Shown: one piece after another, positions 2,870 through 45,655 of the stretch | Position numbering within the stretch: position 1 is the first letter of the stretch | How the letters are laid out: the number at the start of each line of letters is the position of its first letter | Assembly: GCF_019800885.1 (NCBI RefSeq) | Contig: NZ_JAHVKE010000001.1 | Coordinates: forward strand, 744,001-808,000 | Direction: 5' to 3' | DNA: 64,000 bases | From: Maritalea mobilis | GTDB taxonomy: Bacteria; Pseudomonadota; Alphaproteobacteria; Rhodobacterales; Rhodobacteraceae | Program-made: the position numbers and the translations under genes | The notes under the pieces: generated by a model | Told to the model about the DNA's origin: nothing | The model's input: the letters and a program-made list of their open reading frames with translations, nothing else | Databases searched by the model: none

Positions 2870-2906
2870 TCCTTCTTTCGTGGTCTCGTGGAGGGCTGAC
2901 GCGCCG

Positions 2907-4040: not shown

Positions 4041-4162
4041 GTCAGGGCCTTTGCGCTCGGATCCGTTTGGCGCGCAGGATAGACCTGTCGGCGCGGGGCG
4101 ACAACGCCAGAGCGGCGTCAAACGAGGGGATGCGGCGGAATGATCCGGTCAGGCGCGCCCGA

Positions 4163-5416
4163 TCACTGCCCGCCAAGGACAAGTTCGGCGACCTCGGGCA
4201 GGTCCGGGTCGGCATTGGCATCGGCCATCGCATAATTGCTGCTGATCGCATCCGCCGACAATTCCACATCGCGCACGATGGACGCGCCGACCCCGGCCGG
4301 GCCGAGCGTCACGCCATTCACCGCGAAATAGAGCGAGCCCGCATTGCCCGACCGCAACAGCGGCGCGCCATCGGTTTCGGGCAACGCATAACTGTCGCCC
4401 GCGTTCAGCGTGCCTTCGAACAGCGTCGTGCCAGAGGGCGAGGTCACGCGAATCCAAGTCGGGCGCACGGCGAACAGCAACACCTCGTCCGATCCGGTCT
4501 CAGTCACCTGAACCGTCCCGGTTGCGGCCTGCTCGCGATCCGGCGCGGCAACGGCGAACTCCGTGCCCTCAAGCTCGGGATTGGCGCGCAGCCCGGTCAG
4601 GGTGCCCACCTCGTCGGGGTCGAGCGTGGCCAAAGCCTCGTTGCGCGGCGCGATGACGGGCGCTTCCAGCGGTTGCGGACGATACAGCCGGCCAATGCTC
4701 TCGGGCTCGGGCACGGCAATGTCGAAACCCTGCTCGACATCGAACGCGCCTTCGGTCGCCCCGGCAAGCGGGTCGAGCTGCGCCAGGGGCGCGGGGGCAT
4801 CGTCCACCGGCGCGATCTGCAGGCGCTGGATATCGTTCAACACGGCCCACGCGCCGTAGCCGATGCCAAGCGCCAGGACGATCAGCACAGCGAAAGAGCC
4901 AAGCGCCCCCGGTTCGACCCGGCTGAGGACCGAGTCGCGCATCGGCGCGAAGCCGATCGGCGCACGCGCCATGACCTCGTTCGGGTCCACCCGGCGCGGC
5001 ACGTCCGGCGTACTGCGGCGCGCTTCGGCTGCTTGCTTGGCTGAGAAGCCGTGAACCCCGCGGAAGCCGGTCTCGTCGCAGAAGCGGCGGAAGGTCCATT
5101 CCGGGTCCATCTGCAGGTAGCGCGCGTAGGAGCGGACATAGCCGGCGATGAAGCCCGGCGATTGGAACGCGCCCACGTCCCCGTTCTCGATGGCCGCGAT
5201 ATAGGTCGCGCGGATGCGCAATTCGCGCTCCACGTCCAGAAGCGACTTGCCCAGCGTGGCCCGTTCGCCCCGCATCAGGTCGCCCAGAGAGACATCGCTC
5301 AGATCGTAATTCTCGAAATCGGGGCTTGCAGGCTCGGCCGTTGACGGATCGTCACCGTAGGGCATGTTCGTGCCCTCGGTATCCTCGTCCCAATACTGAC
5401 CGTTATCCTGGCCCAT
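4163..5416 (-). CDS. RodZ-like membrane-anchored helix-turn-helix protein (DUF4115 type)
   Basis: A 417-residue protein with an acidic N-terminus, an HTH_25-type domain at about 43-109 (LGDLMRGERATLGKSLLDVE, typical of the RodZ cytoplasmic domain), one transmembrane helix at about 170-193, and a periplasmic C-terminal beta domain (DUF4115) at about 300-417 joined by a Pro/Ala/Glu-rich linker. RodZ bridges MreB and the elongation machinery in rod-shaped cells; the architecture matches but mreB is not in the window. Start set at ATG 5416, with GGGGCAGG upstream; a longer frame reaches 5449. The ispG neighbour is a common alphaproteobacterial arrangement. Function in cell shape is inferred from family architecture. 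Confidence 0.82.
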   Translation of the reverse strand: MGQDNGQYWDEDTEGTNMPYGDDPSTAEPASPDFENYDLSDVSLGDLMRGERATLGKSLLDVERELRIRATYIAAIENGDVGAFQSPGFIAGYVRSYARYLQMDPEWTFRRFCDETGFRGVHGFSAKQAAEARRSTPDVPRRVDPNEVMARAPIGFAPMRDSVLSRVEPGALGSFAVLIVLALGIGYGAWAVLNDIQRLQIAPVDDAPAPLAQLDPLAGATEGAFDVEQGFDIAVPEPESIGRLYRPQPLEAPVIAPRNEALATLDPDEVGTLTGLRANPELEGTEFAVAAPDREQAATGTVQVTETGSDEVLLFAVRPTWIRVTSPSGTTLFEGTLNAGDSYALPETDGAPLLRSGNAGSLYFAVNGVTLGPAGVGASIVRDVELSADAISSNYAMADANADPDLPEVAELVLGGQ

Positions 5417-5572
5417 GCGGCCTGCCCCGTTTACGCCCTGACATACCACATATCGCGGTATGCCCTGTAGCTTTATCCAGATGTTACCCCAAAGCGCGGC
5501 GATTCCCTAGACTCGCCGCGCGACAGGTTGGGTTTAGCATGGGTCCAAGGGGTGTTGCACCAGCAGAAAGCG

Positions 5573-6796
5573 CTACCCGGCCAGTTCGGCGCGATTCAGC
5601 GCACAATGGCTCCAGAGCGCATCCATCGCGTGCACAAGTGCATCCATCATCTTCGGATCATGCACCGGCGACGGCGTGAAACGCAGGCGCTCCGTCCCGC
5701 GCGGGACGGTGGGGAAGTTGATCGGCTGGACGTAGATCCCGAACTCGCTCAGCAGCATGTCGGAGATCTTTTTCGTGTGCACCGGGTCGCCCACGATCAC
5801 GGGCACGATGTGCGAGCCGTGGTCGATGATCGGCAGGCCAAGGCCTTTCAGGCGCAGTTTCAGCACCGCGGCGCGCTCCTGTTGCAGATCGCGCAGCGCC
5901 TGGTCGGTCTTGAGATGACGAACCGAGGCCGCCGCCCCCGCGGCGACCGCCGGCGGGATCGAGGTGGTGAAGATGAACCCCGGCGCGTAGGAGCGCACGG
6001 CGTCGCACATGCGGGCCGAGGCCGCGATATAGCCCCCCATCACGCCAAAGGCCTTACCCAGCGTGCCGTTGATGATGTCCACGCGATGCGCGATGCCCAG
6101 CTGTTCGCTGACGCCACCGCCGCGCGGGCCGTACATGCCGACCGCGTGCACTTCGTCGAGATAGGTCAGCGCGCCGAATTCCTCGGCCAATTCCACCAGC
6201 GCTTCGATCGGGCCGAAATCGCCATCCATGGAATAGACCGATTCGAACGCGATCAGCTTCGGCGCGGCCGGGTCGTCGGCCTCCAGCAACTCGCGCAGAT
6301 GGGCGAGGTCGTTATGACGGAAGATCCGCTTCGCGCCCCCATTGCGGCGGATGCCCTCGATCATCGAGGCATGGTTCAACTCGTCGGAATAGATGATCAG
6401 GCCGGGGAACAGGCGCGGCAGCGTCGAGAGCGTCGCGTCATTTGCGATATAGGCCGAGGTGAAGACCAGAGCGGCCTCCTTGCCGTGCAGGTCGGCCAGT
6501 TCCTCTTCCAGTGCCTTGTGATAGACCGTGGTGCCCGAGATGTTCCGCGTCCCGCCCGAGCCTGCGCCCGTTGCATCCAGCGCATCGTGCATGGCGCCCA
6601 GAACAACCGGGTGCTGCCCCATGCCGAGATAGTCGTTGCCGCACCAGACGGTGATGTCCTGCTCGGTGCCATCGGGCTTTTTCCAGACAGCGTTGGGAAA
6701 CTGCCCCTTGCGGCGCTCGATATCGATGAAGGTGCGATAACGGCCTTCTTCGTGAAGGCGGTCGATGGCTGCGGCAAGCGCGCGGTCGTAATCCAC
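5573..6796 (-). CDS. hemA: 5-aminolevulinate synthase
   Basis: A 407-residue PLP enzyme that condenses glycine with succinyl-CoA to 5-aminolevulinate, the first step of haem and tetrapyrrole synthesis by the C4 (Shemin) route of alphaproteobacteria. The text is close to Rhodobacter HemA throughout: [15 protein letters not shown] near the start, [23 protein letters not shown], and the PLP lysine in [11 protein letters not shown] near 248. I chose GTG at 6796 because homologues start VDY/MDY there and GAAGGGAGA lies just upstream; the frame stays open to 6982 but the extra part is not conserved-looking. An FNR-type palindrome lies at 6954-6967 upstream, suggesting oxygen control. Confidence 0.97.
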
Positions 6797-7135
6797 TGGC
6801 GGTCTCCCTTCCGGATGAGCCACCCAGTTCGCGCGGGCGGCCCCAAAAAGACGCTGGCTCTTGATATATCGGACAGCGTTTCGTCCTGTTCGCCGTCCCA
6901 CATAGGACGGCACGGCCAGCAGGGCCAAGTTACAAATCGACGCGCTGTGAACATTGACCTGAGTCAACCAACGGATGAGCATCCGGGTTGCTGAGACCGC
7001 ATGTCGCGTTTGGCACCCACGCCGCCCACCGCCCCGGTCGCCTTTGGCTGGACAGTGCCGTCAGGCGGCGTAGTCTCGCGCCGATCATCGGGCAGTCCGG
7101 CTGCCCACATCCCTTCACGAGCACGAGGCCCTATC
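6797..7135. other. Divergent intergenic region hemA / M20 peptidase
   Basis: These 339 bases separate the divergent hemA and M20 peptidase genes. They hold the hemA ribosome binding site (minus strand, just beyond 6797), an FNR-type palindrome at 6954-6967, a weak minus-strand -10-like element TGTAAC at 6929-6934 placed suitably downstream of that palindrome, and the GAGG Shine-Dalgarno of the peptidase near 7124. I see no further gene. Confidence 0.6.
6954..6967. promoter_or_regulatory. FnrL/FNR-type operator upstream of hemA
   Basis: TTGACCTGAGTCAA is a perfect dyad of TTGAC and GTCAA half sites with a 4-bp centre, matching the FNR family consensus TTGAY-N4-RTCAA. It lies 158 bp upstream of the hemA start. 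In Rhodobacter sphaeroides hemA is known to be under FnrL control, which makes the match meaningful. It could also act on the divergent peptidase gene. Confidence 0.75.
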
Positions 7136-8512
7136 ATGTCCATGGACGCCGTTCTTTCCCGCATCGATTCCGATCTCGACGCCGCCACCGGGCGGCTGTT
7201 CGACCTGTTGCGCATCCCCTCGATCTCGACCGATCCGGCCTATTCCGCCGATGTCGCCCGCGCCGCCGACTGGCTGGCCAGGGAACTGTCGGATCTCGGC
7301 TTCGACGCTTCGGTCCGCCCGACCGACGGGCACCCGATGGTCGTGGCCCATGGCGGCCCCGAGGACGGGCGTCACATCCTGTTCTACGGCCATTATGACG
7401 TGCAGCCCGTCGACCCGCTGGAGCTTTGGTCGCGCGACCCGTTCGATCCGGCGATCGAGGACAAGGACGGCCGCAAGGTCATCCGCGCGCGCGGCGCCTC
7501 GGATGATAAGGGCCAACTCATGACCTTCATCGAGGCCTGCCGCGCCTGGAAGGCCGAGACTGGCACCCTGCCCGCCCGCATCACCATCTTCCTCGAAGGC
7601 GAGGAAGAATCCGGCTCGCCCTCGCTCGTGCCCTTCCTCAAGGCCAATGCCGAGGAACTGAAGGCCGAGATCGCGCTGATCTGCGACACCGGCCTGTATG
7701 CCGAGGGCGTGCCCGGCATCGTGACCCAGTTGCGCGGCCTTCTGGGCGAGGAGATCACCGTCACCGGCCCGGACAAGGATCTGCATTCGGGCCTCTTCGG
7801 CGGGATCGCGATGAACCCGATCCGGGTGCTGACCCGCGTGCTCGCCAACCTCCACGACGCCCATGGCCATGTGCAGGTGCCGGGGTTCTACGACGGCGTG
7901 GCCGAGCTGTCGCCCGAGTTGAAGGAACAATGGAACAATCTCGGGTTTGACGCCGAACGCTTCCTCGGTTCGGTGGGGCTGACCCATCCGGCGGGCGAGG
8001 ACGACCGCACCGGGCTGGAAATGATCTGGTCGCGTCCGACCGCCGAGATCAACGGCATCTGGGGCGGCTATACCGGCGCGGGCTTCAAGACGGTCCTGCC
8101 TTCGCAGGCCCATGCCAAGGTCAGCTTCCGCCTCGTCGCGGGCCAGGACCCCCATGTCCTGCGCGAAAGCTTCCGCGACTGGGTGATCCAGCAAATGCCG
8201 CTGGATTGCCACGTGTCCTTCGAAGGCCACGGCGCCTCGCCCGCCTCGCGGATGGATATCTCGCACCCGGCCTTCGAAATGGCGCGCCAGGCGCTCAGCG
8301 CCGAATGGCCGGGCGAAGCGGCCTTCATCGGCGGCGGCGGCTCGATCCCGGTCGCGGGCTATTTCAAGTCGGTGCTTGAGATGGATGCGCTCTTGGCCGG
8401 GTTCGGCAAGGGTGACGACCAGATCCATTCCCCGAACGAGAAATACGACCTCGACAGTTTCCACCGCGGCACGCGGAGCTGGGCACGCATCCTTGGCGGT
8501 TTCGCGTCCTGA
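7136..8512 (+). CDS. M20-family dipeptidase / metallopeptidase
   Basis: A 458-residue di-zinc peptidase of the M20 (ArgE/DapE/CPG2, PepV-like) family. Metal and catalytic motifs are seen in order: FYGHYDVQPVD (first His and catalytic Asp), GASDDKGQ (bridging Asp), LEGEEESGSPS (catalytic Glu and metal Glu), and the dimerisation-domain loop DLHSGLFGG. The C-terminal GGGGSIPV and the final HSPNEKYDL supply the last ligands. Members cleave dipeptides or N-acyl amino acids; the exact substrate cannot be read from sequence. ATG at 7136 with GAGG upstream is preferred to a longer frame that starts inside the regulatory region; ATG 7142 is possible. Confidence 0.9.
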   Translation: MSMDAVLSRIDSDLDAATGRLFDLLRIPSISTDPAYSADVARAADWLARELSDLGFDASVRPTDGHPMVVAHGGPEDGRHILFYGHYDVQPVDPLELWSRDPFDPAIEDKDGRKVIRARGASDDKGQLMTFIEACRAWKAETGTLPARITIFLEGEEESGSPSLVPFLKANAEELKAEIALICDTGLYAEGVPGIVTQLRGLLGEEITVTGPDKDLHSGLFGGIAMNPIRVLTRVLANLHDAHGHVQVPGFYDGVAELSPELKEQWNNLGFDAERFLGSVGLTHPAGEDDRTGLEMIWSRPTAEINGIWGGYTGAGFKTVLPSQAHAKVSFRLVAGQDPHVLRESFRDWVIQQMPLDCHVSFEGHGASPASRMDISHPAFEMARQALSAEWPGEAAFIGGGGSIPVAGYFKSVLEMDALLAGFGKGDDQIHSPNEKYDLDSFHRGTRSWARILGGFAS

Positions 8513-26726: not shown

Positions 26727-28226
26727 ATGCAAGAGATCGGACATTGGATCAACGGCCAGCACGTTGCCGGCACGTCGGGCCGCACGGCGGACGTGATGAA
26801 CCCCGCCACCGGCGAGGTGCAGGGCAAGGTCGCTCTGGCCACGACCGCGGAACTGGACGCCGCCGTCGCCGCCGCCGCCGAGGCGCAGAAGGGCTGGGCC
26901 GCGACCAACCCGCAGCGCCGCGCGCGGGTGATGATGAAATTCGGCGCGCTGATCAACGAACACATGGACGAGCTGGCCGAGCTGGTCAGCCGCGAACACG
27001 GCAAGACCCTGCCCGACGGGCGCGGCGACGTGCAGCGCGGGCTTGAAGTGGTCGAGGTCTGCATGGGCGGCCCCGCCCTTCTGAAAGGCGAATTCACCGA
27101 CGATGGCGGGCCCGGCATCGACCTTTACTCGATGCGCCAGCCCCTTGGCGTCGTGGCAGGCATCACGCCCTTCAACTTCCCCGCGATGATCCCGCTGTGG
27201 AAGATGGCCCCGGCGCTGACCTGCGGCAACGCGATGATCCTGAAACCGTCCGAGCGCTGCCCCTCGACCTCGCTGCGGCTGGCCGAGCTTCTGAAAGAGG
27301 CCGGTCTGCCCGATGGCGTGTTGCAGGTCGTCAACGGCGACAAGGAAAGCGTCGACGCGATCCTCGACAACGAGACCGTGCAGGCCGTGGGCTTCGTCGG
27401 CTCGACCCCGATTGCGCAGTACATCTACGGCCGTGCCGCCAATAACGGCAAGCGGGCGCAGTGCTTCGGCGGCGCCAAGAACCACATGATCATCATGCCC
27501 GACGCGGACATGGACAAGGCCGCCGACGCGCTGGTGGGCGCAGGCTTTGGCGCGGCGGGCGAACGCTGCATGGCGATCTCGGTCGCGGTCCCGGTGGGCA
27601 AGGAAACCGCCGACACGCTGCGTGAAAAGCTGATCCCGCGCATCGAGAAGCTGAAGGTCGGCCCCTACACCGCCGGCGACGACGTGGATTACGGCCCCGT
27701 CATCACCGCGCAGGCCAAGGATCGCATCCTCGGGCTGATCGACAGCGGCGTGGACCAGGGCGCAGAGCTGGTCGTGGACGGGCGCGGGTTCGAATTGCAG
27801 GGCTACGAGAACGGCTATTTCGTTGGCCCCAGCTTCTTCGACAACGTCACTCCCGACATGGAGATCTACAAGGAAGAGATTTTCGGCCCGGTCCTGAGCC
27901 AGGTGCGCACCGACAGCTATGAAGAGGCGCTGAAGCTGACCATGGACAACCCCTATGGCAACGGCACGGCGATCTTCACCGCCGATGGCGACACGGCACG
28001 CGATTTCGCCCACCGGGTCAACGTGGGCATGGTCGGCATCAACTTCCCGATCCCGGTGCCGCTCAGCTACCACACCTTCGGCGGCTGGAAGAAATCGGCC
28101 TTCGGCGACCTGAACCAGTACGGTCCCGATGCCTTCCGCTTCTACACCAAGACCAAGACCGTCACGGCGCGCTGGTTCTCGGGGATCAAGGACGGGGCCG
28201 CGTTCAACTTCAAGGCCATGGACTGA
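26727..28226 (+). CDS. mmsA: Methylmalonate-semialdehyde dehydrogenase (CoA-acylating)
   Basis: MmsA, 499 residues, converts methylmalonate semialdehyde to propionyl-CoA with NAD+ and CoA, the last step of valine (and thymine/inositol) degradation. Aldehyde dehydrogenase motifs: ITPFNFPAMIPLWKMAPAL near 150, GSTPIAQYI near 230, and the catalytic Cys in GERCMAIS near 285. The opening IGHWINGQHVAGTSGR is typical of MmsA. GGGAGGA precedes ATG 26727. The other valine-pathway genes lie 2 kb downstream at 30204-33366. An intrinsic terminator follows. Confidence 0.96.
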   Translation: MQEIGHWINGQHVAGTSGRTADVMNPATGEVQGKVALATTAELDAAVAAAAEAQKGWAATNPQRRARVMMKFGALINEHMDELAELVSREHGKTLPDGRGDVQRGLEVVEVCMGGPALLKGEFTDDGGPGIDLYSMRQPLGVVAGITPFNFPAMIPLWKMAPALTCGNAMILKPSERCPSTSLRLAELLKEAGLPDGVLQVVNGDKESVDAILDNETVQAVGFVGSTPIAQYIYGRAANNGKRAQCFGGAKNHMIIMPDADMDKAADALVGAGFGAAGERCMAISVAVPVGKETADTLREKLIPRIEKLKVGPYTAGDDVDYGPVITAQAKDRILGLIDSGVDQGAELVVDGRGFELQGYENGYFVGPSFFDNVTPDMEIYKEEIFGPVLSQVRTDSYEEALKLTMDNPYGNGTAIFTADGDTARDFAHRVNVGMVGINFPIPVPLSYHTFGGWKKSAFGDLNQYGPDAFRFYTKTKTVTARWFSGIKDGAAFNFKAMD

Positions 28227-28250
28227 GGCCTGACCGCTCACCCGCGGACG

Positions 28251-28283
28251 ACGCCCCCGTACCACAGCTGCGGGGGCGTTTTT
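28251..28283 (+). terminator. Intrinsic terminator of mmsA
   Basis: ACGCCCCCG (28251-28259) and CGGGGGCGT (28271-28279) form a perfect 9-bp stem, followed by TTTT and then CATTTCC. It ends transcription 24 bp after the mmsA stop. Confidence 0.92.
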
Positions 28284-35748: not shown

Positions 35749-38100
35749 TTACGGCAGAAGGTCCGGGATGATCGTCACGATGCCGGGGAACAACCACAGC
35801 AACGCAAGGCCGATCACCTGGATGCCCACGAAGGGGATCACGCCGCGGTAGATATGCCCGGTGGTGACCGATTTCGGCGCGACACCCCGCAGGTAGAACA
35901 ACGCGAAGCCGAACGGCGGCGTCAGGAACGACGTTTGCAGGTTCACCGCGATCATGATCGTCACCCATTTCGGATCGAGCGTGCCGCCGTAGATGACGGG
36001 ACCGACGATCGGGATCACGATGTAGATGATCTCGAGGAAGTCGAGCACGAAGCCGAGGATGAACAGGATCAGCATCACCAGCAGGAACACCGCCCATTCA
36101 TTGTCGAAGGCGCGCAGGAACTGCTGGATGTAGTGCTCGCCCCCGAAGGAGATCAGCACGAGGTTCAGCAGCTGCGAGCCGATCAGGATGGTGAAGACCA
36201 TCGACGTCACCTTCGCCGTCTCGCGCACCACCGGGCCCAGGATGTTCATCCGCAACAGCACCCAGCAGGCATAGAGCAGGCCGAAGAAGGCGAAGTGATA
36301 GGCGCCCTGCGCGATGATATAGGCCACCCAGTCCTGGAAGGGCACGGTCTCGCGCGTGATGCGCAAGTCGAAATTGACCCCGATCAGGATCATGATGACC
36401 AGCGCGAAGGACGCCCAGATGATCAGCTTGGACCACCCGTCCTCTTCCTTCAGCTTGCGGTAGGCCGCCAGCATGATGGCGCCAGCCGCCCCAAGCGCCG
36501 CAGCCGGCGTCGGGTTGGTGATGCCGCCCAGGATGGAGCCAAGCACCGCCACGATCAGCACCAGCGGCGGGAAGACCACGCGCAGAAGCTCGTTCTGCCC
36601 CAGCCGCCCCATCGCGATCCGGCAGCCATAGAGCGTCAGGATCGTCGGGATGGCGAGGATCAGGAAGGTCGCCCCCGACCCCGTCAACGGCCCGATGAAA
36701 GCGATATCGGCCATGAGCGCAAGGACCACCCCTGCACCACCCACCAGAAGCGGCGTCGGGCTGGACGAGGGCGAAACACCGCGGGCGATGATCAGCACAA
36801 GCGCCAGCAAGGTGAAGATCGTGGCCACGCCCGACCCGATCGGCGGCGCATTCTCCAGCGCCGCGGCGCGGGCTTCGACCAGTTCTTCCTCGGTCAGTTC
36901 GACCGGGCCATCGCTCGTCCCGGCGGCGGCGTTGGCTTCGCGCGCGGCAACGGCCTCGTCCCACGCCTCTTGGCCGTGCAGCTCGATCATCGCCATCTGG
37001 CACTGTTCCGAAACGTTGGTGCGCAGCGTGTTGTTGCGCTCCTGCTCGGCATAATCCGAGACGATCACGCTCTGGCTGCCGATGATCCCGGCAGAGACCG
37101 CGAGGACGACGGCAAGGATCAGACCCACAGGCGCGTAGAGATACCAGGTCAACGCTTCGTTGCGCGTCACCGGCTCACCCGAGCTGGCCGCGAACTGGAC
37201 CGGCGGCGCGCTGGACGGGCGGAACAGGGCGAAGCCAAACGCATAGGCGCCGTAGAGGAAGGCAAGGAACAGGCCAGGCAAAAGCGCGGCCTGGAACAGC
37301 GTGCCGACCGACAGAACCGCCGGCTCGCCGAGGTAGGTCAGCGCGTCGGAACAGCCCGCAAGCTGGGCGCGGGTTTCCTGACCGGTGGCGTAGAGGTCAC
37401 CGACCAGCGTGCCCAGAAGAACGATCACGATCGAGGGCGGGATGATCTGGCCCAGCGTCCCCGAGGCCGCGATCACACCCGTGGCAAGCTCGGGCGAGTA
37501 GTTGTTACGCAACATGGTCGGCAGGGCCAGCAGGCCCATGGTCACCACGGTTGCGCCGACGATCCCGGTCGAAGCGGCGAGGAACGCGCCCACCAGCACG
37601 ATGGACACGGCCAGACCACCCGGCAGCGGGCCGAAAACGCGCGCCATGGTGGTCAGCAGATCCTCGGCGATCTTCGAGCGTTCCAGCGTGATGCCCATCA
37701 TCACGAACATCAGAACCGCCAGCAGCGTCTCGATGGACTGGCCCGCGATCACGCGCTCGTTCATGCGGTTCACGATGAACGAGATGTTGCGGTCCATCGC
37801 CTGTTCCCAGCCGCCGGGGAACAAGGCTTCCTCGACCCTTGGCAAGTCCGGGTATCGGAAGACGGATATGGCATCTCGGGCCACTCCTTCGGCCACGAGG
37901 GCCGAATATTCCGCCGACCCGGTGTCGATGGCCTGGTGGATCAGCAGCCCTGCGGAGTCGAGGGCTGCGATGATGCCGAAGGAAATGACGCCGGCGCCGC
38001 CGATGGCGAAGGCCACCGGGAAGCCCGTCATGATCCCCGCGAAGAGAGTCAGGAAGACGATGATCAGACCGATCTCGACCCCATCCAAACCGAAAAGCAT
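35749..38100 (-). CDS. TRAP transporter large permease (DctM), extended form
   Basis: A 783-residue multi-pass protein, nearly double the usual 430 of DctM. The DctM core spans about 1-310 (GLIIVFLTLFAGIMTGFPVA at the start; GATVVTMGLLALPTMLR near 182; GTLGQIIPPSIVIVLLG near 213). A soluble, acidic, non-hydrophobic insert at about 345-425 follows, then at least seven further helices to the end, including FILGFVLDFLEIIYIV near 700 and a PFGFALFYLRG block near 740, similar to DctM C-terminal helices. So the family domain is split by a large insertion. It works with the small permease and DctP encoded next to it to import an organic acid. Confidence 0.88.
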   Translation of the reverse strand: MLFGLDGVEIGLIIVFLTLFAGIMTGFPVAFAIGGAGVISFGIIAALDSAGLLIHQAIDTGSAEYSALVAEGVARDAISVFRYPDLPRVEEALFPGGWEQAMDRNISFIVNRMNERVIAGQSIETLLAVLMFVMMGITLERSKIAEDLLTTMARVFGPLPGGLAVSIVLVGAFLAASTGIVGATVVTMGLLALPTMLRNNYSPELATGVIAASGTLGQIIPPSIVIVLLGTLVGDLYATGQETRAQLAGCSDALTYLGEPAVLSVGTLFQAALLPGLFLAFLYGAYAFGFALFRPSSAPPVQFAASSGEPVTRNEALTWYLYAPVGLILAVVLAVSAGIIGSQSVIVSDYAEQERNNTLRTNVSEQCQMAMIELHGQEAWDEAVAAREANAAAGTSDGPVELTEEELVEARAAALENAPPIGSGVATIFTLLALVLIIARGVSPSSSPTPLLVGGAGVVLALMADIAFIGPLTGSGATFLILAIPTILTLYGCRIAMGRLGQNELLRVVFPPLVLIVAVLGSILGGITNPTPAAALGAAGAIMLAAYRKLKEEDGWSKLIIWASFALVIMILIGVNFDLRITRETVPFQDWVAYIIAQGAYHFAFFGLLYACWVLLRMNILGPVVRETAKVTSMVFTILIGSQLLNLVLISFGGEHYIQQFLRAFDNEWAVFLLVMLILFILGFVLDFLEIIYIVIPIVGPVIYGGTLDPKWVTIMIAVNLQTSFLTPPFGFALFYLRGVAPKSVTTGHIYRGVIPFVGIQVIGLALLWLFPGIVTIIPDLLP

Positions 38101-38156
38101 CTCTCTGATGTCCCCTTAGCTGCGCGGGCTTGGCGCCCGCGTCTTATGATGTCGGA

Positions 38157-39068
38157 TCAGGTCGAACCCGAGTGAATGGCGTGTTCAAGGTCCTCGGCCT
38201 CGTCCCCCATGACGTCACGGTCGAGGTATTTGCCCTCGCTCTCCTCACCTTCGAGCCATTCGAGGTAGGAGCGCCAGAAGAAGGACATGGCATGCAGGAA
38301 GACCAGTACGCAGTAGGCCACGAGCAGGATCTTGAACAGGAAGTAGGCGTTGAAACCGTTCGGGCTGAAGCCGATGGTTTCGACGTTCCAGCGCAGGACG
38401 CGCGCCTGCATCAGCATCCGGTCCAGTTCGGCCGAGGCCGACGGGTTCGGCACGACAAGGTGCCGCCACATGAAGAACCAGGCATACAGGTAGGTCAGAA
38501 CGATGGCGGGCATCATGAAGATGATGCTGCCGACCATGTCGATCATGCGCTTGGTGCGGAACTTGACCGCCGAGTAGACGAGGTCGACCCGAACATGGCC
38601 GCCCTGCACGAAGGTGTAGCTGACGCAAAGCGTCACGACCATCGCATTGTAAAGCTTCAGCTCTTCGCCCCACCAGCTGAGGTCCTGCACGAAAGCGGTG
38701 CCGAGCGGCCCGAGCTGGATCTCGGCCACCCGGAAGATCCGTTGCAGGAACACGATCATGACCTGCTGCAAGACCATCAGAAGGCCGGCCCAGGACACGA
38801 TGCGCCCGATGCCGTTGGCGAACCATTCGAGCCCGCGCACGCTGGTCCAGAGGATCTCGCGCTTCCAGGCCATGCCAAGCGCGGTGATCACGAGGAAGGT
38901 GGTGAAAACGACAAAGAAGAACTCGACCGAGCCACCGTAATAGATGAACCGCACCAGCGATTCAGGGTTGCTCCAGTCCAGCCACGCACCGGGATTGGTG
39001 ATGGCGAGAAACAGGTGATACGGCGCCAGAGCGATATTCTGTAGCACCCACAGGATGAAGTCGATCAT
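38157..39068 (-). CDS. TRAP transporter small permease (DctQ), extended form
   Basis: A 303-residue membrane protein, clearly longer than the usual 150-200 residues. Helices near 38-58, 85-105, 125-145 and 165-190, with the charged joints RFRTKRMIDMVGSIIFMMP typical of DctQ. The N-terminus and the long C-terminal charged tail (ending SEGKYLDRDVMGDEAEDLEH) are the extra parts. ATG 39068 chosen by the hydrophobic start; the frame extends to 39131. Middle gene of dctP-dctQ-dctM. Confidence 0.85.
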   Translation of the reverse strand: MIDFILWVLQNIALAPYHLFLAITNPGAWLDWSNPESLVRFIYYGGSVEFFFVVFTTFLVITALGMAWKREILWTSVRGLEWFANGIGRIVSWAGLLMVLQQVMIVFLQRIFRVAEIQLGPLGTAFVQDLSWWGEELKLYNAMVVTLCVSYTFVQGGHVRVDLVYSAVKFRTKRMIDMVGSIIFMMPAIVLTYLYAWFFMWRHLVVPNPSASAELDRMLMQARVLRWNVETIGFSPNGFNAYFLFKILLVAYCVLVFLHAMSFFWRSYLEWLEGEESEGKYLDRDVMGDEAEDLEHAIHSGST

Positions 39069-39184
39069 GCGGTGGTCCCCCGGACGCGCCCTGCCCCGGG
39101 CAGCGTCGACACTCGGATTGGTCGCAAGCAAATATCCCGCCCGGTGCCAGAGCGGCCCGGGCGGGACGAAGCGTCAGGTTCGGA

Positions 39185-40270
39185 TCAGGCCGCGTTCACG
39201 CGGTTACGCTGGCGCATGTACTCGCCATCGCCGATCTCGTACCAATTCGCCGACTCTTCGAGCGAGGCGAAGTAGCTGTTGGCGATTTCCGCGTAGATCG
39301 GATCGCCCATGTTCTCTTCGCGGACCTCGGCCGAGGCACGACCGAACGCATCCCAGACGTCTTCGGGGAATTCGCGCACCTGCACGCCAGCGGCCTGCAG
39401 ACGGGCCAGAGCAGCACCGTTTTCGGCCAGCGACAGCGCGGTGTTCTGCGCGTGAGTGGCCTGAGTGGCGACTTCGACGATCTTCTGCTGCTGCGGCGTC
39501 AGCGATTCCCAGACCTCGAGGTTGAACACCAGGGAGAGCGCCGAGCCCGGCTCGTGGAAGCCCGAGGTGTAGTAGTTCGACGTGACCTCCTGGAAGCCCA
39601 TGCGCTCGTCCGCGTAGGGGCCGATCCATTCCGCACCGTCGATCTGACCCGAGGACAGCGCCTGGTAGATCTCGCCGCCGGGGATGTTCTGCACCGATGC
39701 GCCGAGGCGGCCGAGCACCTGGCCACCCTGACCCGGCATGCGGAAACGCAGGCCCTGCAGGTCGTCGGCCGAGTTGATCTCGATGTTGAACCAGCCACCG
39801 GGCTGCATTGCGGTCATGCCGCACATGAACGGCTTGAGGTTGAACAGCGACGACAGGTTGTCGTGCAGGTCCTGACCGCCGCGGCGGTAATACCAGTTGG
39901 CCATCTCCTGCGAGGTCATGCCGAAGGGCACGGCGGTGAAGAACGCGAAGGCCGGGTGCTGGTTCAGGAAGTAGTATTCAGCCGAGTGGTAGAGATCGGC
40001 CTGGCCAGAAGACACGGCGTCGAACACTTCGAACGCGCCCACGAGCGTGCCGGCCGGGTTCTTGTTGATGGTCAGCTGGCCGTCCGTCATCTCGGCGATG
40101 TAGTCAACGGCCATCTGGGCCGCGTCGTCGAAGATGGCGAACCCGTCCGGCACGGACGTCACGAGCGTCAGCTCGCGGCGGCCTTGTGCGTAGACCGGTG
40201 CTGCAAGCGTTGCGGATGCTGCCGCCGCGCCGCCGAGTGCCGACGTGCGCAGGAATGAACGACGATCCAT
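39185..40270 (-). CDS. TRAP transporter substrate-binding protein (DctP, TakP-like)
   Basis: A 361-residue periplasmic binding protein. The twin-arginine signal MDRRSFLRTSALGGA leads into a Tat-type leader ending APVYAQ. The mature part matches the TakP group (binding 2-oxo acids): the hallmark GGEIYQALSSGQIDGAEWIGPYAD near 222-245 and TLVGAFEVFDAVSSGQADLYHSAEYY near 76, both lining the ligand site. With the enlarged permeases it makes a complete TRAP system. A 2-oxo acid substrate is likely but other carboxylates cannot be ruled out. Confidence 0.9.
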   Translation of the reverse strand: MDRRSFLRTSALGGAAAASATLAAPVYAQGRRELTLVTSVPDGFAIFDDAAQMAVDYIAEMTDGQLTINKNPAGTLVGAFEVFDAVSSGQADLYHSAEYYFLNQHPAFAFFTAVPFGMTSQEMANWYYRRGGQDLHDNLSSLFNLKPFMCGMTAMQPGGWFNIEINSADDLQGLRFRMPGQGGQVLGRLGASVQNIPGGEIYQALSSGQIDGAEWIGPYADERMGFQEVTSNYYTSGFHEPGSALSLVFNLEVWESLTPQQQKIVEVATQATHAQNTALSLAENGAALARLQAAGVQVREFPEDVWDAFGRASAEVREENMGDPIYAEIANSYFASLEESANWYEIGDGEYMRQRNRVNAA

Positions 40271-40474
40271 TCAGGTATCCTCCCCATTAGGATGTCCCGC
40301 GGCCCCCCTCGGACCTCGGGTTATTGCTTCGAATGGCGGCACGTTAGCGAAGGCATTGGGCGCAGAAAACACCTTTCCGCATCCGAACGGCACATTTTTG
40401 TAAAATTTCCTTACCAAAATCGCCTGTTTTGCGGGCAGTCAACCTGTGGTTGCGCCGCGAGGCTGCATGCCCGC

Positions 40475-40519
40475 GCGACTCTGCCGTTGGCCGCACCTGC
40501 GCGGCGACGCCAGAGTCGC
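40475..40519. repeat. Nested inverted repeat
   Basis: GCGACTCTG (40475-40483) and CAGAGTCGC (40511-40519) are perfect complements; between them GCCGC (40490-40494) pairs with GCGGC (40501-40505). There is no T run, so it is not an obvious terminator. It may be an operator region or part of a transcript for the divergent genes. Confidence 0.5.
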
Positions 40520-40619
40520 AAAATCACCTGAGAGCGCGGACCGCAGACCGAAAGTTTCGCGAGAGGGTTCCCGTGCGACATATTGTTCAGAAAAATGGCC
40601 GGATCGGGCGTTTTCTCGG

Positions 40620-40648
40620 TTGACGGCCCCATAACGCCTTCCTAGTGT
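40620..40648 (+). promoter_or_regulatory. Sigma70-type promoter of the ilv leader
   Basis: TTGACG (40620-40625) and TAGTGT (40643-40648) are separated by 17 bp, placing the transcript start near 40655, ten bases before the leader peptide's AGGAG. The -35 is near consensus and the -10 moderate. Confidence 0.6.
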
Positions 40649-40677
40649 CCCGCGCAGTTTCGGACAGGAGCCTGAAG

Positions 40678-40728
40678 GTGCTTCACCTTATTCTTGTAAT
40701 GGTAGATCGGATGCGCATGGGTCGGTGA
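40678..40728 (+). CDS. ilv operon leader peptide (attenuator peptide)
   Basis: A 16-codon ORF, GTG start, encoding MLHLILVMVDRMRMGR and a TGA stop. AGGAG at 40666-40670 is placed 7 nt before the GTG. Three Leu, one Ile and two Val codons fall within the first nine codons, the pattern of transcription attenuators of branched-chain amino acid operons. A 9-bp hairpin (40713-40721 with 40747-40755) and an intrinsic terminator (40754-40782) follow before ilvI. Confidence 0.8.
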   Translation: MLHLILVMVDRMRMGR

Positions 40729-40753
40729 CGACAGCCATATCGGAACCCCATGC

Positions 40754-40782
40754 GCCCTCGGACACCCGCCGGGGGCTTTTTT
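40754..40782 (+). terminator. Attenuator terminator before ilvI
   Basis: GCCCTCGG (40754-40761) and CCGGGGGC (40769-40776), one G-T pair, form an 8-bp stem followed by six T. It lies 26 bp past the leader-peptide stop and 68 bp before ilvI. Its first two bases are shared with the preceding hairpin 40713-40755, so the two structures compete. Confidence 0.8.
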
Positions 40783-40850
40783 ATGCCGGAACGCAAGGCC
40801 AAGGGGCCAATGGAAGAGAGCGGTAAGTTAGCAATGGAAGGACATCCGCG

Positions 40851-42602
40851 ATGACACGCCAGATGACAGGCGCGAAGATGGTGATCGAAGCCCTCAAGGA
40901 GCAGGGTGTCGATACGGTATTCGGCTACCCGGGCGGCGCGGTGCTCCCCATCTACGACGAGATCTTCCAGCAGAACGAGATCCGCCACATCCTCGTGCGT
41001 CACGAACAGGGCGCGGTGCATGCCGCTGAGGGCTATGCCCGCTCGACCGGCAAGCCCGGCGTCGTTCTGGTGACCTCCGGCCCCGGCGCGACGAACGCGG
41101 TCACGGGCCTGGTCGATGCGCTGATGGATTCGATCCCGCTGGTCGTGCTGACCGGGCAGGTGCCGACCTTCATGATCGGCTCGGACGCCTTCCAGGAGGC
41201 CGACACCGTCGGCATCACCCGCCCCTGCACCAAGATGAACTGGCTGGTGAAAGACACCGACAAGCTGTCGGGCACGATCCACGAGGCCTTCCACATCGCC
41301 ACCGAAGGCCGCCCCGGCCCGGTTCTGGTCGACCTGCCCAAGGACGTGCAATTCGCCACGGGCACCTACACCTCGAAGCCGCAGGTCAAAAGCCACTACC
41401 AGCCGCGCGTGAAGGGCGACACCGCCATGATCGAAGCGCTGGTCGAGGCGATGGAACAGGCCGAGCGCCCGATCTTCTACACCGGCGGCGGCGTCATCAA
41501 CTCGGGCCCCAAGGCCAGCCAGCTGTTGCGCGAACTGGTCGAGGCGACGGGGTTCCCGATCACCTCGACGCTGATGGGCCTGGGTTCCTACCCGGCCTCG
41601 GGTGACAAATGGCTGGGGATGCTGGGCATGCACGGTCTCTACGAGGCCAACCTCGCGATGCATGACTGCGACCTGATGATCAATATCGGCGCCCGGTTCG
41701 ATGACCGCATCACCGGCCGCATCGCCGATTTCAGCCCCGGCTCGCGCAAGGCGCATATCGATATCGACCCGTCCTCGATCAACAAGGTGATCCACGCCGA
41801 TTTCCCGATCATCGGCGACGTGGCGCATGTGCTGGAAGACATGCTGCGCATCTGGAAGGCGCGCGGGCGCAAGACCCAGTCCGAGGCGCTGACCAAGTGG
41901 TGGGAGCAGATCGACCAGTGGCGCGCGGTGAAATGCCTGCGCTACACCAACTCGGAGACGGTCATCAAACCGCAATACGCGCTTGAACGCCTCGAGGCGC
42001 TGACCAAGGGCCGCGACCGCTACATCGCGACCGAGGTGGGCCAGCACCAGATGTGGGCGGCGCAGTTCCTGGGCTTCGAGGACCCGAACCGCTGGATGAC
42101 ATCCGGGGGCCTGGGGACCATGGGCTATGGCGTCCCGGCCTCGATCGGCGTTCAGATTGCCCATCCCGAAGCGCTGGTCATCAACGTGGCCGGCGAAGGC
42201 TCGTGGCTGATGAACATGCAGGAGATGGGCACCGCGGTGCAGTATCGCGCCCCGGTCAAGCAGTTCATCCTCAACAACGAACGCCTGGGCATGGTGCGCC
42301 AATGGCAAGAACTTCTGCATGGCGAGCGATACTCGCACAGCTGGTCCGAGGCGCTGCCCGATTTCGTGAAACTGGCCGAGGCCTTCGGCTGCAAGGGCAT
42401 CCTTTGCACCGATCCGGCCGATCTGGACGATGCGATCATGGAAATGCTCGAGTATGACGGTCCGGTCATCTTCGACTGCGTGGTCGAAAAGCACGAGAAC
42501 TGCTTCCCGATGATCCCCTCGGGCAAGGCCCATAACGAGATGCTCCTGGGCGAGGCCGAGACGCAGGGCGTCATCCAGGAAGGCGGCGCCGTTCTCGTCT
42601 GA
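40851..42602 (+). CDS. ilvI: Acetolactate synthase, large subunit
   Basis: A 583-residue ThDP enzyme that condenses two pyruvates (or pyruvate with 2-ketobutyrate) in the shared first step of valine, leucine and isoleucine synthesis. Features: VFGYPGGAVLPIYDE, the catalytic Glu in RHEQGAVHAAEGYAR near 47-60, and a ThDP/Mg motif near 440 reading AGEGSW-MN where the family consensus is GDGS-MN. The small subunit gene ilvH lies 2.5 kb downstream instead of directly behind. Control: leader-peptide attenuator upstream, terminator just downstream. Confidence 0.95.
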   Translation: MTRQMTGAKMVIEALKEQGVDTVFGYPGGAVLPIYDEIFQQNEIRHILVRHEQGAVHAAEGYARSTGKPGVVLVTSGPGATNAVTGLVDALMDSIPLVVLTGQVPTFMIGSDAFQEADTVGITRPCTKMNWLVKDTDKLSGTIHEAFHIATEGRPGPVLVDLPKDVQFATGTYTSKPQVKSHYQPRVKGDTAMIEALVEAMEQAERPIFYTGGGVINSGPKASQLLRELVEATGFPITSTLMGLGSYPASGDKWLGMLGMHGLYEANLAMHDCDLMINIGARFDDRITGRIADFSPGSRKAHIDIDPSSINKVIHADFPIIGDVAHVLEDMLRIWKARGRKTQSEALTKWWEQIDQWRAVKCLRYTNSETVIKPQYALERLEALTKGRDRYIATEVGQHQMWAAQFLGFEDPNRWMTSGGLGTMGYGVPASIGVQIAHPEALVINVAGEGSWLMNMQEMGTAVQYRAPVKQFILNNERLGMVRQWQELLHGERYSHSWSEALPDFVKLAEAFGCKGILCTDPADLDDAIMEMLEYDGPVIFDCVVEKHENCFPMIPSGKAHNEMLLGEAETQGVIQEGGAVLV

Positions 42603-42624
42603 CGGCGCATGAAAGCATGTTTGG

Positions 42625-42657
42625 AAGGCGGGCCCGGTTCGGCCCGCCTTTTTCTTT
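42625..42657 (+). terminator. Strong intrinsic terminator after ilvI
   Basis: GGCGGGCC (42627-42634) and GGCCCGCC (42641-42648), extended by AA/TT, form a 10-bp stem followed by TTTTTCTTT. Most transcription from the ilv promoter should stop here, separating ilvI from the following genes. Confidence 0.93.
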
Positions 42658-42709
42658 GCCGCCCGACCCTTAGCGGCCTTGCCGTCCAAGTGCGCCGGTT
42701 CATGGCCCG

Positions 42710-42735
42710 AAAGCGACATGAAAAATGTCGCTTTT
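42710..42735. terminator. Second hairpin with T run
   Basis: AAAGCGACAT (42710-42719) and ATGTCGCTTT (42725-42734) form a perfect 10-bp stem around GAAAA, followed by one more T and CACCC. It may be a back-up terminator after ilvI or an operator near the promoter of the following gene. Confidence 0.6.
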
Positions 42736-42830
42736 CACCCTTTCAAGTCGCCCCTCGACATGTTGTGTTGGAACCTTTCCCGGCCCCATGGGTTGGCGAA
42801 CAGCAGAAAAAACGAAAACCGGAGGGACAC

Positions 42831-43250
42831 GTGTTCAGACACATCATGGTTCCGGTCGATCTCGGCCATGTCGAGAAACTCGATCGTGCACTCAGCGTCG
42901 CTGCGGACCTCGCGCGCCACTACAAGGCGCGCGTGACCTATGTCGGCGTCACGTCACCGCAACCGGGCTCGGTTGCCCACACGCCCCGCGAATTTGCCGA
43001 GAAACTGGCGCGTTTTGCCGCCGCGCAGGCCGAGGTGCGCCGCATCGAGGATGTCGCCTCGGACCCGATCACGGTGCATGACCCGTCGATCGACCTCGAC
43101 AAGACGCTGGCGAAAACGGGCGAAGACCTTGGCGCCGACCTGATCGTCATGGGCTCGCACATCCCGCGTCGCTTCGACATGCGCAGCCATGGCGGGCATC
43201 TCGCGGCGCTGAGCCATCACTCGGTGATGATCGTGCGCGACGACGCGTAG
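42831..43250 (+). CDS. Universal stress protein (UspA family)
   Basis: A 139-residue UspA-fold protein: FRHIMVPVDLGHVEKLDRAL at the start (beta1-loop-alpha1), and the ATP-binding motif GADLIVMGSHIPRRF...HHSVMIVRD near 100-135 (G-x2-G-x9-G(S/T) region). GTG 42831 was chosen since GGAGGG lies before it and homologues start a few residues before HIMVPVD. It is followed 92 bp later by the BCCT transporter in the same direction. UspA proteins often pair with ion or osmolyte transporters. Confidence 0.87.
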   Translation: MFRHIMVPVDLGHVEKLDRALSVAADLARHYKARVTYVGVTSPQPGSVAHTPREFAEKLARFAAAQAEVRRIEDVASDPITVHDPSIDLDKTLAKTGEDLGADLIVMGSHIPRRFDMRSHGGHLAALSHHSVMIVRDDA

Positions 43251-43342
43251 GCCATCGCGACGCCAACACCAAGACCCCACGAAAGACCGCCCCTCACACG
43301 CCGGATCCCGGCGGCGGGCGGCCCACATCAAAGGGAACACGC

Positions 43343-44989
43343 ATGACAGAAGAAAATACGGACATGCAGGGGATCCCCGCGCCCGAGGGCGACGCGGACC
43401 TGATCTCCACCGATTACAATATCGGACAGGACAATATCGAAGGCACCGTCGGTCCCTTCGGCTTTGACATTCATAACCCGGTCTTCCTGATCTCCGGCCT
43501 CTCGGTCGTGGCCTTTGTGTTCTACACGCTTGCGCTGCCGGAACAGTCGGGCGAGCTTTTCTCATGGCTCTTCGCGCAGGTGACGCAGGGCTTTGACTGG
43601 TTCTTCCTCGGGGCGGCGAACATCTTCGTCATCTTCTGCCTCGTGCTGATCTTCACGCCGCTGGGATCGGTCCGCCTGGGCGGCGTCGATGCCCGGCCCG
43701 ACTATACCTATGCGGGCTGGTTCGCGATGCTGTTCGCCGCTGGCATGGGCATCGGCCTGATGTTCTACGGCGTGTCCGAACCGATGAGCCACTTCTCCTC
43801 CTCGATGGGCGGCACGGCCGCCGAGGGGGGCGCCCGCACCGACTGGGCGCCGCTTGGCGCGGCCGCGGGCGACGAACAGGCCGCCATTCGCCTTGGCATG
43901 GCCGCGACCATCTTCCACTGGGCGCTGCACCCTTGGGCTATCTACGCCGTGGTGGCGCTGGCGCTGGCGCTGTTCAGCTACAACAAGGGCCTGCCGCTGA
44001 CGATCCGCTCGGCCTTCTACCCGATCCTCGGTGAACGCGTCTGGGGCTGGTGGGGCCATGTCATCGACACGCTGGCGGTCTTTGCCACGCTCTTCGGTCT
44101 TGCCACCTCGCTCGGCTTCGGCGCGACGCAGGCCAATGCCGGTCTCAACCACCTGTTCGGAGTGCCGATCAGCAACACCACCGAGGTGATCCTGATCTCG
44201 GCGATCACCGCCGTGGCGCTGATCTCGGTGCTGCGCGGCCTCGACGGCGGGGTGAAGGTCCTCTCCGAGATCAACATGGGCCTGGCCTTCGTGCTGCTGC
44301 TCTTCGTGCTGCTGGCCGGACCGACCATCGCGATCCTGACCGGCTTTGCCGATTACCTCTGGGCCTATGTCGTCAACCTGCCCGCGCTGTCGAACCCGGT
44401 CGGGCGCGAAGACACCAACTTCATGCAGGGCTGGACGTCCTTCTACTGGGCGTGGTGGATCTCCTGGTCGCCCTTCGTCGGCATGTTCATCGCCCGCGTC
44501 AGCCGGGGCCGCAGCGTGCGCGAGTTCATCATCTGCGTCCTGCTGATCCCCTCGCTGGTCTGCGTGCTGTGGATGTCGGTCTTCGGTGGCGTCGCGATCC
44601 AGCAGGTCGTGCAGGATGGCTACACCGCCGCGCAGGAGGCCGATCTGCCGCTGCAACTCTTCTACATGCTGGAAGAGCTGCCGCTGTCGGCGATCACCTC
44701 CTTCGTCGGGATCATCCTCGTGATCGTGTTCTTCGTCACCTCGTCGGATTCCGGCTCGCTGGTCATCGACACGATCACCGCCGGCGGCAAGATCGACGCG
44801 CCGGTGCCGCAGCGCGTGTTCTGGTGCACCTTCGAGGGCGCGGTCGCCATCGTGTTGCTGCTCTCGGCGGGGGGGCTTGCCTCGCTGCAATCCATGGTGA
44901 TCTCGACCGGCCTGCCCTTCACGGTCGTCCTTCTGCTGATGTGCTGGGCGATCTTCCGCGGGCTTCAGTCGGAACGCGCCAACACCTGA
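43343..44989 (+). CDS. BCCT-family transporter (betaine/choline/carnitine type)
   Basis: A 548-residue secondary transporter with twelve helices of the LeuT fold. The helix-3 motif is GMGIG (near 137), and the substrate-site Trp box is present as WTSFYWAWWISWSPFVG near 360-376. An N-terminal charged tail of about 50 residues precedes helix 1, as in BetP. GMGIG-type BCCTs move betaine with Na+; the osmoprotectant and the coupling ion are inferences. It is preceded by a UspA gene and followed, after a 15-bp stem, by ilvH. Confidence 0.9.
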   Translation: MTEENTDMQGIPAPEGDADLISTDYNIGQDNIEGTVGPFGFDIHNPVFLISGLSVVAFVFYTLALPEQSGELFSWLFAQVTQGFDWFFLGAANIFVIFCLVLIFTPLGSVRLGGVDARPDYTYAGWFAMLFAAGMGIGLMFYGVSEPMSHFSSSMGGTAAEGGARTDWAPLGAAAGDEQAAIRLGMAATIFHWALHPWAIYAVVALALALFSYNKGLPLTIRSAFYPILGERVWGWWGHVIDTLAVFATLFGLATSLGFGATQANAGLNHLFGVPISNTTEVILISAITAVALISVLRGLDGGVKVLSEINMGLAFVLLLFVLLAGPTIAILTGFADYLWAYVVNLPALSNPVGREDTNFMQGWTSFYWAWWISWSPFVGMFIARVSRGRSVREFIICVLLIPSLVCVLWMSVFGGVAIQQVVQDGYTAAQEADLPLQLFYMLEELPLSAITSFVGIILVIVFFVTSSDSGSLVIDTITAGGKIDAPVPQRVFWCTFEGAVAIVLLLSAGGLASLQSMVISTGLPFTVVLLLMCWAIFRGLQSERANT

Positions 44990-45094: not shown

Positions 45095-45655
45095 ATGTCG
45101 CCGCTCAATATCGAAAAAGGCTCCACCAGCCATTCCGCCTACGACCTCCGCAGCCACATGTCGGACGAGGTTGAAACCCATACCCTCGCCGTCCTGGTGC
45201 AGAACGAGGCAGGCGTGCTGGCACGGGTCATCGGCCTGTTCTCGGGGCGCGGCTACAACATCGAGAGCCTGACCGTCGCCGAAGTCGACCGCGAGGGGCA
45301 CCGTTCGCGCATCACCATCGTGACCAGCGGCACGCCGCAGGTGATCCAGCAGATCCGCATGCAGCTCGAACGCATGGTGCCGGTCCACGAGGTTTCCGAC
45401 CTGACCGTCGAAGGCCCCTTCGTCAGCCGCGAACTGGCGCTGATCAAGGTCGTCTCCAAGGGCGAGCACCGGGTCGAGGCGCTGCGCATCGCCGAGATCT
45501 TCCGCGCCAACGTGGTCGACTCGACGCTGGAGTCCTTCGTGTTCGAGATCACCGGCACGCCCGAAAAAGTCGATGCCTTTTGCGAGTTGATGCGCCCGCT
45601 TGGCGATGTCCGCCTGGCCCGCACCGGCGTCGCGGCCATCGCGCGCGGGCTGTGA
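45095..45655 (+). CDS. ilvH: Acetolactate synthase, small (regulatory) subunit
   Basis: A 186-residue IlvH with an N-terminal ACT domain (HTLAVLVQNEAGVLARVIGLFSGRG near 28-52, containing the Val-binding Gly loop) and a C-terminal domain (ALIKVVSKGEHRVEALRIAEIFRA near 110). It confers Val feedback on IlvI. It is not adjacent to ilvI here. ATG 45095 is preferred; GGGAG lies upstream. Its stop overlaps a GTG start of the next ORF by 4 bp. Confidence 0.95.
   Translation: MSPLNIEKGSTSHSAYDLRSHMSDEVETHTLAVLVQNEAGVLARVIGLFSGRGYNIESLTVAEVDREGHRSRITIVTSGTPQVIQQIRMQLERMVPVHEVSDLTVEGPFVSRELALIKVVSKGEHRVEALRIAEIFRANVVDSTLESFVFEITGTPEKVDAFCELMRPLGDVRLARTGVAAIARGL

Follow-up and report, generated by a model that had tools for sequence, protein, structure and literature searches.

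Vitreschak et al. are said to have predicted in 2004 that attenuators dependent on branched-chain amino acids (BCAA) act on ilvIH in Alphaproteobacteria, and we know of no attenuator at ilvIH of E. coli. An 'ilvIH cis regulatory' entry for Sinorhizobium meliloti, citing this work, is found in an excerpt of PMC2573895, and excerpts of PMC6123439 cite it too. The latter excerpts name leader peptides at ilvGMEDA, ilvBN and leuABCD of E. coli and, for the ilvIH promoter, Lrp; ilvIH also appears in their list of genes said to be attenuated. In Caulobacter crescentus, RNA-seq and ribosome profiling point to attenuation via the ilvL leader coding sequence, which precedes ilvIH (PMC4117421, in excerpt). 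Another alphaproteobacterial attenuator is rnTrpL/peTrpL of S. meliloti trp, in which the terminated leader builds up as a small RNA; it differs from the locus described here in its Trp leader, its leaderless sORF and the trans functions reported for rnTrpL (excerpts of PMC10117765 and PMC7298713).

Here we describe the leader of ilvI in Maritalea mobilis, located in a stretch of 64,000 nucleotides that was analysed as a whole and is called the window below. This element is an added, well-documented case of the BCAA attenuators already predicted for alphaproteobacterial ilvIH. It resembles them, as far as the excerpts describe them, in its Ile/Val/Leu leader, terminator, downstream gene and bacterial class; the overlap at the foot of its terminator and a hairpin arm that encodes RMGR are described here from sequence. 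We consider it highly probable that the ilvI leader is a ribosome-mediated transcription attenuator, through which ilvI(H) answers to charged Leu, Ile and Val tRNA.

A preliminary description of this DNA had compared the locus with the enteric ilv and leu operons. That parallel is a loose one: leader peptides do precede E. coli ilvGMEDA, ilvBN and leuABCD, but the nearer parallels are alphaproteobacterial. By common account, the E. coli ilvGMEDA, ilvBN, leu and trp attenuators use stalling at regulatory codons to decide between an antiterminator and a terminator, as the leader here would. The leader peptide is 15–16 amino acids long here, against 28–32 in E. coli leu, ilvGMEDA and ilvBN as these are usually given. 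In contrast to the E. coli attenuators, the family to which the window belongs has no predicted 1:2 protector hairpin, and its two structures share only 2–3 bases.

The ilvI leader in the window

All parts of the leader lie on the forward strand. A promoter-like pair (40620–40648) consists of TTGACG (40620–40625) and TAGTGT (40643–40648) with a 17-base spacer between them, and a Shine-Dalgarno sequence AGGAG (40666–40670) lies 7 bases 5' of a GTG start at 40678. The leader ORF has 16 codons and a TGA stop (40678–40728); it reads (V/M)LHLILVMVDRMRMGR, and the leader peptide is MLHLILVMVDRMRMGR. Leu is found at codons 2, 4 and 6, Ile at 5 and Val at 7 and 9. These six codons, three CTT, one ATT and two GTA, are all of the rare kind.

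The final codons of the ORF contain the 5' arm GCGCATGGG of a putative antiterminator hairpin (40713–40721), and this arm encodes the C-terminal RMGR of the peptide. The 3' arm CCCATGCGC is at 40747–40755. Its last two bases, at 40754–40755, are common to the hairpin and an intrinsic terminator, where they form the foot of the stem. The terminator stem-loop (40754–40776) is supported by terminator prediction and covariation; its arms GCCCTCGG (40754–40761) and CCGGGGGC (40769–40776) make 8 pairs around a loop of 7, and a U-tract of six T follows (40777–40782). The promoter-like pair, AGGAG and the T6 terminator agree base for base with the preliminary description. Its GTG-started ORF with three Leu, one Ile and two Val in the first nine codons can be read directly, its 9-bp hairpin is present with all pairs perfect, and its remark that hairpin and terminator share just two bases is true.

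The gene that would be regulated is ilvI (40851–42602, forward strand), which encodes the acetolactate synthase large subunit with TPP_enzyme N, M and C domains and begins 68 bases after the end of the T6 run at 40782. Two further matches to ilvI in the same genome are only 30% and 26% identical. The best named DNA matches in a plasmid collection, Pseudorhodobacter for ilvI and Paracoccus and Thioclava for positions 1–8000 of the window, point to Rhodobacteraceae/Paracoccaceae as the family. The small subunit gene ilvH (45152–45655, forward strand; ALS_ss_C and ACT_AHAS_ss domains) was translated from 45152, and its likely ATG is two codons further in. A universal stress protein gene and a gene for a BCCT (betaine/carnitine/choline) transporter split the ilvI–ilvH pair, at 42609–44989 on the same strand. 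The nearest recognised gene upstream of the leader encodes a DctP-type binding protein (39185–40270, reverse strand). By eye, the ORFs beside it resemble TRAP membrane subunits (35749–40270, reverse strand), and a long ORF among them (35749–38100, reverse strand) seems to hold a large insert.

A promoter scan of 39500–42000 returned no promoter-like sites, the TTGACG/TAGTGT pair falling below the scan threshold. The folding energy of the leader does not stand out (z −1.20, with 25 of 200 shuffles at least as stable), and neither does that of its 3' part (z −1.79; 7 shuffles as good). Folding energy therefore says little here, and conservation in relatives was used as the evidence against chance.

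Conservation of the leader among relatives

A protein search with ilvI matched 52 of 61 genomes, and in close relatives the upstream sequence can be aligned all the way from the −35 element to the U-tract. A covariance model, R1, was made from 29 ilvI leaders of these close relatives. Of 198 family genera searched with R1, 170 have the element, all but nine of these with a single match per genome. The other 28 of the 198 family genomes have no R1 match; the filters drop weak matches, and three of these genomes carry a divergent element (L019, L036, L052). The R1 loci inspected were the 72 lower-scoring of 92 places among the matches listed, the other 20 being left aside. Of the 198 family genomes, 119 contain the exact pattern GCGCATGGGN{14,44}CCCATGCGC and none contains its reversed control; a few family genomes carry extra, unrelated matches to the exact pattern. 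Across the class the exact pattern is present in 10 of 385 genomes, five of them within the family; G047, G601 and G543 are also matched in this class scan, and a match in G173 (L070) has no leader.

The position before ilvI is conserved with the element. Of 103 new family loci, 102 contain an ilvI motif, and in 101 the stem and terminator lie at most 330 bases before it; L177 has no such motif in its 641 bases. Outside the family the situation is different. A GG..TTTT terminator candidate is absent from 13 of 50 ilvI upstream regions, 12 of which come from other alphaproteobacterial families; one set of 20 such regions supplied 13 from outside the family. Since 12 of 13 ilvI upstream regions from other families thus lack a candidate, the element does not stand at ilvI throughout the class. 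Genome G028 has two ilvI genes, with 86% and 84% identity to that of the window, and each carries its own conserved leader (L011, L033).

Element counts were made after removal of six same-genome duplicates. A callable leader is present in 129 of 131 non-duplicate elements, and 111 of the 129 have at least five BCAA codons; the mean BCAA fraction is 0.377. Counted back from the Met of RMGR, each codon from −9 to −5 specifies Leu, Ile or Val in 109 to 118 of the 119 core leaders, and 88 of them have such a codon at all five places. The distance from this run of codons to the hairpin is fixed across leaders. The fraction of BCAA codons is 0.375 in frame, against 0.099 and 0.101 in the other two frames. 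An ungapped stem search misassigned L030 and L167, and L155 was left out of the counts of 119 leaders and 131 elements.

Rare codons are preferred. In 120 core leaders, compared with 29 ilvI genes, GTA makes up 56% of the Val codons (3% in ilvI), and CTA (30% against 1%), CTT (34% against 10%) and ATT (47% against 13%) are raised in the same way. Rare codons are also a feature of the E. coli leu leader. A requirement for unstructured RNA could account for part of this bias, because the Gly codon that follows the BCAA run is mostly GGA as well. The expression signals are likewise conserved: an SD-like motif precedes 115 of 120 leaders, and TTGAC with TANNNT is found in 107 of 119 relatives, 99 of these 107 with a spacer of 17. 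The base directly after the leader stop codon (40729 in the window) is C in 106 of 120 leaders, perhaps a context for slow release.

The hairpin and terminator were compared in alignment A2, which holds 124 elements of the core type and leaves out the divergent L019, L029, L032, L036, L037, L042 and L052. The hairpin keeps all nine pairs in 104 of 124 elements and at least eight in 123; both arms are exact in 92, and one extra G-C pair is available in 72. Its covariation is weak, because its sequence hardly varies: two of ten pairs change on both sides, which 12 of 500 shuffles equal, and as many pairs change when the hairpin partner is slid (3 at −3). Only the proportion of cells that are paired stands out, at 94.0% against at most 64.8% when slid, and L148 and L164 have compensatory pairs. 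In the divergent L036, L042 and L052 a hairpin is kept while the stem sequence and the leader C-terminus change; L052 has arms GCGCGCGTGAC and GTCACGCGCGC and retains a BCAA leader. Lineages of this kind, with a BCAA leader and a hairpin of another sequence, are better support for a predicted hairpin than its covariation is.

The terminator covaries clearly, with four of eight pairs changed on both sides in 34 cells and a score that none of 500 shuffles reaches; L170 lacks a T4 run and L035 shows no terminator. Hairpin and terminator overlap by 2–4 nt in 121 of 131 non-duplicate elements, and the overlap is zero or negative in six divergent members (L019, L029, L036, L037, L042, L052). In 121 of 124 aligned elements, all of the core type, the shared foot bases can pair with both partners. 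The family therefore has a translatable BCAA-rich leader ORF conserved as codons, an intrinsic terminator between this ORF and the structural gene, and a downstream gene of the matching pathway. The preliminary description had made its attenuator reading for ilvI depend on leader codons and stems being conserved among relatives; they are, and the reading is supported.

RF02502 and a second gene with the cassette

A scan of the window with Rfam gave no match at gathering level, neither riboswitch nor T-box. The only signal at 40560–40860 is RF02502 (Atu_C8, 'Rhizobiales sRNA'), at 23.4 bits against a gathering score of 50, which places the window element below the 50 bits required for membership. 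Of 18 loci tested against RF02502 six matched, all below threshold, the best at 43 bits (L052). The RF02502 consensus ATGATTATTCTTGTGGTGGGCCCGCGCATGGGCAGGGCGGTGTAA translates to a leader, MIILVVGPRMGRAV, and it shares the GCGCATGGG/CCCATGCGC stem, leader and terminator with the window element.

Six loci, all above the RF02502 threshold, came out of one pattern scan over named genomes. Five of them stand directly before ilvI, in three Rhizobiaceae MAGs, Nitratireductor arenosus and a Mesorhizobium sp.; the sixth, in Nisaea nitritireducens, precedes a gene for an MFS protein. In S. meliloti an RF02502 match of 121.1 bits, with the leader MKNFAVILVVGRRMGRMV, immediately precedes the gene annotated as acetolactate synthase large subunit. 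All six loci and the S. meliloti leader are matched by R1 as well, with scores between 22 and 41 bits. The leader ORF and the position before ilvI in six genomes identify RF02502 there as the ilvI leader, which agrees with the 'ilvIH cis regulatory' entry in the excerpt of PMC2573895. In the genomes examined RF02502 is thus probably a cis attenuator leader of ilvI rather than (only) an sRNA, judging by sequence and position.

The rhizobial elements differ from the window element in one respect. They have an inner hairpin around the stop codon and a gap of 6–7 bases between the hairpin and the main terminator stem, where the window element has its overlap, and both states are predicted to form the terminator (six of six loci). 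The lack of overlap in RF02502 and in the six divergent family members suggests that another antiterminator operates there, or that the hairpin has a further role such as pausing or trans-action. In 142 class genomes RF02502 is over its cut-off in one; on reading the loci, the matches L054, L055 (G128) and L061 look unrelated.

The cassette of leader, hairpin and terminator also stands before a Bcr/CflA-type MFS gene, in at least three further alphaproteobacterial families. One of these, family f107, has RF02502 over cut-off in 6 of 36 genomes (L053, L056–L060), upstream of the MFS gene. The two best R1 matches outside the family of the window, L112 (77.5 bits; leader MHILIVVVGERRLDR) and L113 (36.7 bits; leader MSIRIVSQYVWRAVL), precede the same kind of gene. 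The L053 protein, the one tested, belongs to TIGR00710 (Bcr/CflA) with 212.8 bits against a cut-off of 200.9, and the proteins of L112 and L113 share 59% and 55% identity with it. Homologues of this MFS protein occur at 13 places in 11 of 133 class genomes; the cassette lies within about 270 bases upstream at three of these (G143, G037, G070), and the ten places without it include the homologue in the genome of the window itself. The cassette suggests that the transporter so preceded may be linked to BCAA.

Several other matches were set aside. L114 (G077) and L115 (G098), which account for two of the four class genomes matched by R1 outside the family, look like terminators of other genes, as does L116, a second place in G061. 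A further R1 match in the window (28176–28283; 15.8 bits) is a terminator after a dehydrogenase-like ORF, and no leader was seen; by eye this ORF is like the methylmalonate-semialdehyde dehydrogenase of valine breakdown.

Both RF02502 as the rhizobial ilvI leader and the cassette upstream of a Bcr/CflA-type gene may be new findings. A literature search, which had most subscription journals outside it, found no Rhodobacterales ilvI attenuator, no link between RF02502 and ilvI, and nothing that joins CflA with a leader peptide and attenuation. Nothing relevant was found under the name Atu_C8, and the main text of two Agrobacterium RNA papers (PMC3738593, PMC4201532) contains neither ilv/ilvI nor acetolactate.

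A candidate switch at the terminator foot

The 9-bp hairpin is best read as the antiterminator, because the bases it has in common with the terminator form the foot of the terminator stem and this arrangement is conserved. If BCAA are scarce, the ribosome would stall within the series of rare BCAA codons, the last of which begins 11 bases before the 5' arm. A ribosome stalled there would thus leave this arm free, and the hairpin (40713–40755) could fold ahead of synthesis of the terminator 3' arm. It would take the two terminator foot bases next to the U-tract, and RNA polymerase would read into ilvI. If BCAA are plentiful, the ribosome would reach the stop codon and cover the 5' arm, the hairpin would be blocked, and the terminator would end transcription at about 40782. 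Coverage of the arm at the stop codon was estimated from ribosome footprint sizes. We infer that stalling, termination and readthrough take place at the ilvI leader in vivo.

With the 5' arm free, the models give the shared bases to the hairpin in 120 of 120 core elements as long as the terminator 3' arm is yet to be made. The terminator forms in 119 of 120 with a ribosome at the stop codon, and the hairpin in 117 of 120 with no ribosome. At equilibrium these bases go to the terminator in 96 of 120 elements, with medians of 0.85 against 0.15. The equilibrium models thus favour the terminator even when the hairpin is free, so the two structures are not strictly exclusive, and the modelled switch would be kinetic, not absolute. 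Zipping of the foot would yield little net energy while the hairpin stands, as expected of a kinetic antiterminator, and the loss of two foot pairs would presumably suffice to block termination. No 1:2 protector hairpin is predicted, as a four-segment arrangement of the E. coli trp type would have; the models without a ribosome form the antiterminator instead. An untranslated leader should therefore default to readthrough, unlike the trp leader. Two additional pairings were considered and rejected by eye: an extended antiterminator in the window (UCGG:UCGG across a 2x2 loop), since relatives show no constraint on the codons preceding the arm, and a pseudoknot of the hairpin loop CGGTAACGG with a terminator arm, which is inconsistent across the aligned sequences.

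In the minimum-energy and consensus folds the full terminator stands beside a hairpin of 7 bp, and in rhizobial RF02502 the two coexist without overlap. The hairpin might accordingly serve for pausing and synchronisation, like 1:2 of the trp leader, and coexist with the terminator while the true antiterminator is another pairing. We consider this unlikely: hairpin and terminator overlap at the foot by 2–4 bases in 121 of 131 family elements, two-way pairing is available in 121 of the 124 of the core type, the stall position frees the 5' arm and does not cover it, and RNAalifold on 29 sequences gave no alternative conserved pairing. Somewhat less likely again is that the terminated leader is (also) a trans-acting sRNA, its GCGCATGGG and CCCATGCGC arms being near-invariant for pairing with other mRNAs. 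The rhizobial relative is indeed filed in Rfam as an sRNA, the exactness of both arms in 92 of 124 elements goes beyond what pairing requires, and rnTrpL in Sinorhizobium offers a precedent in the excerpts of PMC10117765 and PMC7298713. Against this, RF02502 lies directly before ilvI in five of the six named pattern loci and in S. meliloti, where a cis role is enough, the 5' arm also codes for RMGR and is doubly constrained, and some lineages do change the stem sequence.

A reading without translational regulation, as an ordinary terminator of an upstream transcript together with a chance short ORF, would fit the ordinary folding energy and the empty promoter scan. It is very improbable given that BCAA and rare codons are conserved in frame over about 120 genera, that the promoter-like pair, the SD and their spacing are all conserved, and that the nearest recognised upstream gene, the DctP-type gene at 39185–40270, lies on the opposite strand. 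The attenuator remains the preferred reading.

A wider proposal goes with it, which we put forward tentatively as a possibility of somewhat less than even weight. The attenuator of this family would be on by default and kinetic, and the theft of 2–3 bases from the terminator foot would be the whole switch. The cassette would form one regulatory RNA family across Alphaproteobacteria, partly filed as the 'sRNA' RF02502, and would control ilvI in Rhodobacterales and Rhizobiales and a Bcr/CflA-type MFS gene in at least three other families.

The analysis defines, across the family (170 of 198 genera), an attenuator that no Rfam family matches above threshold, and it names a likely cis function for the orphan 'sRNA' RF02502. 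The element would be a minimal case for how few shared bases an attenuator requires. A transporter gene from a drug-efflux family is predicted to be under amino acid control; if this is true, the Bcr/CflA 'drug efflux' MFS protein would be a BCAA-responsive transporter.
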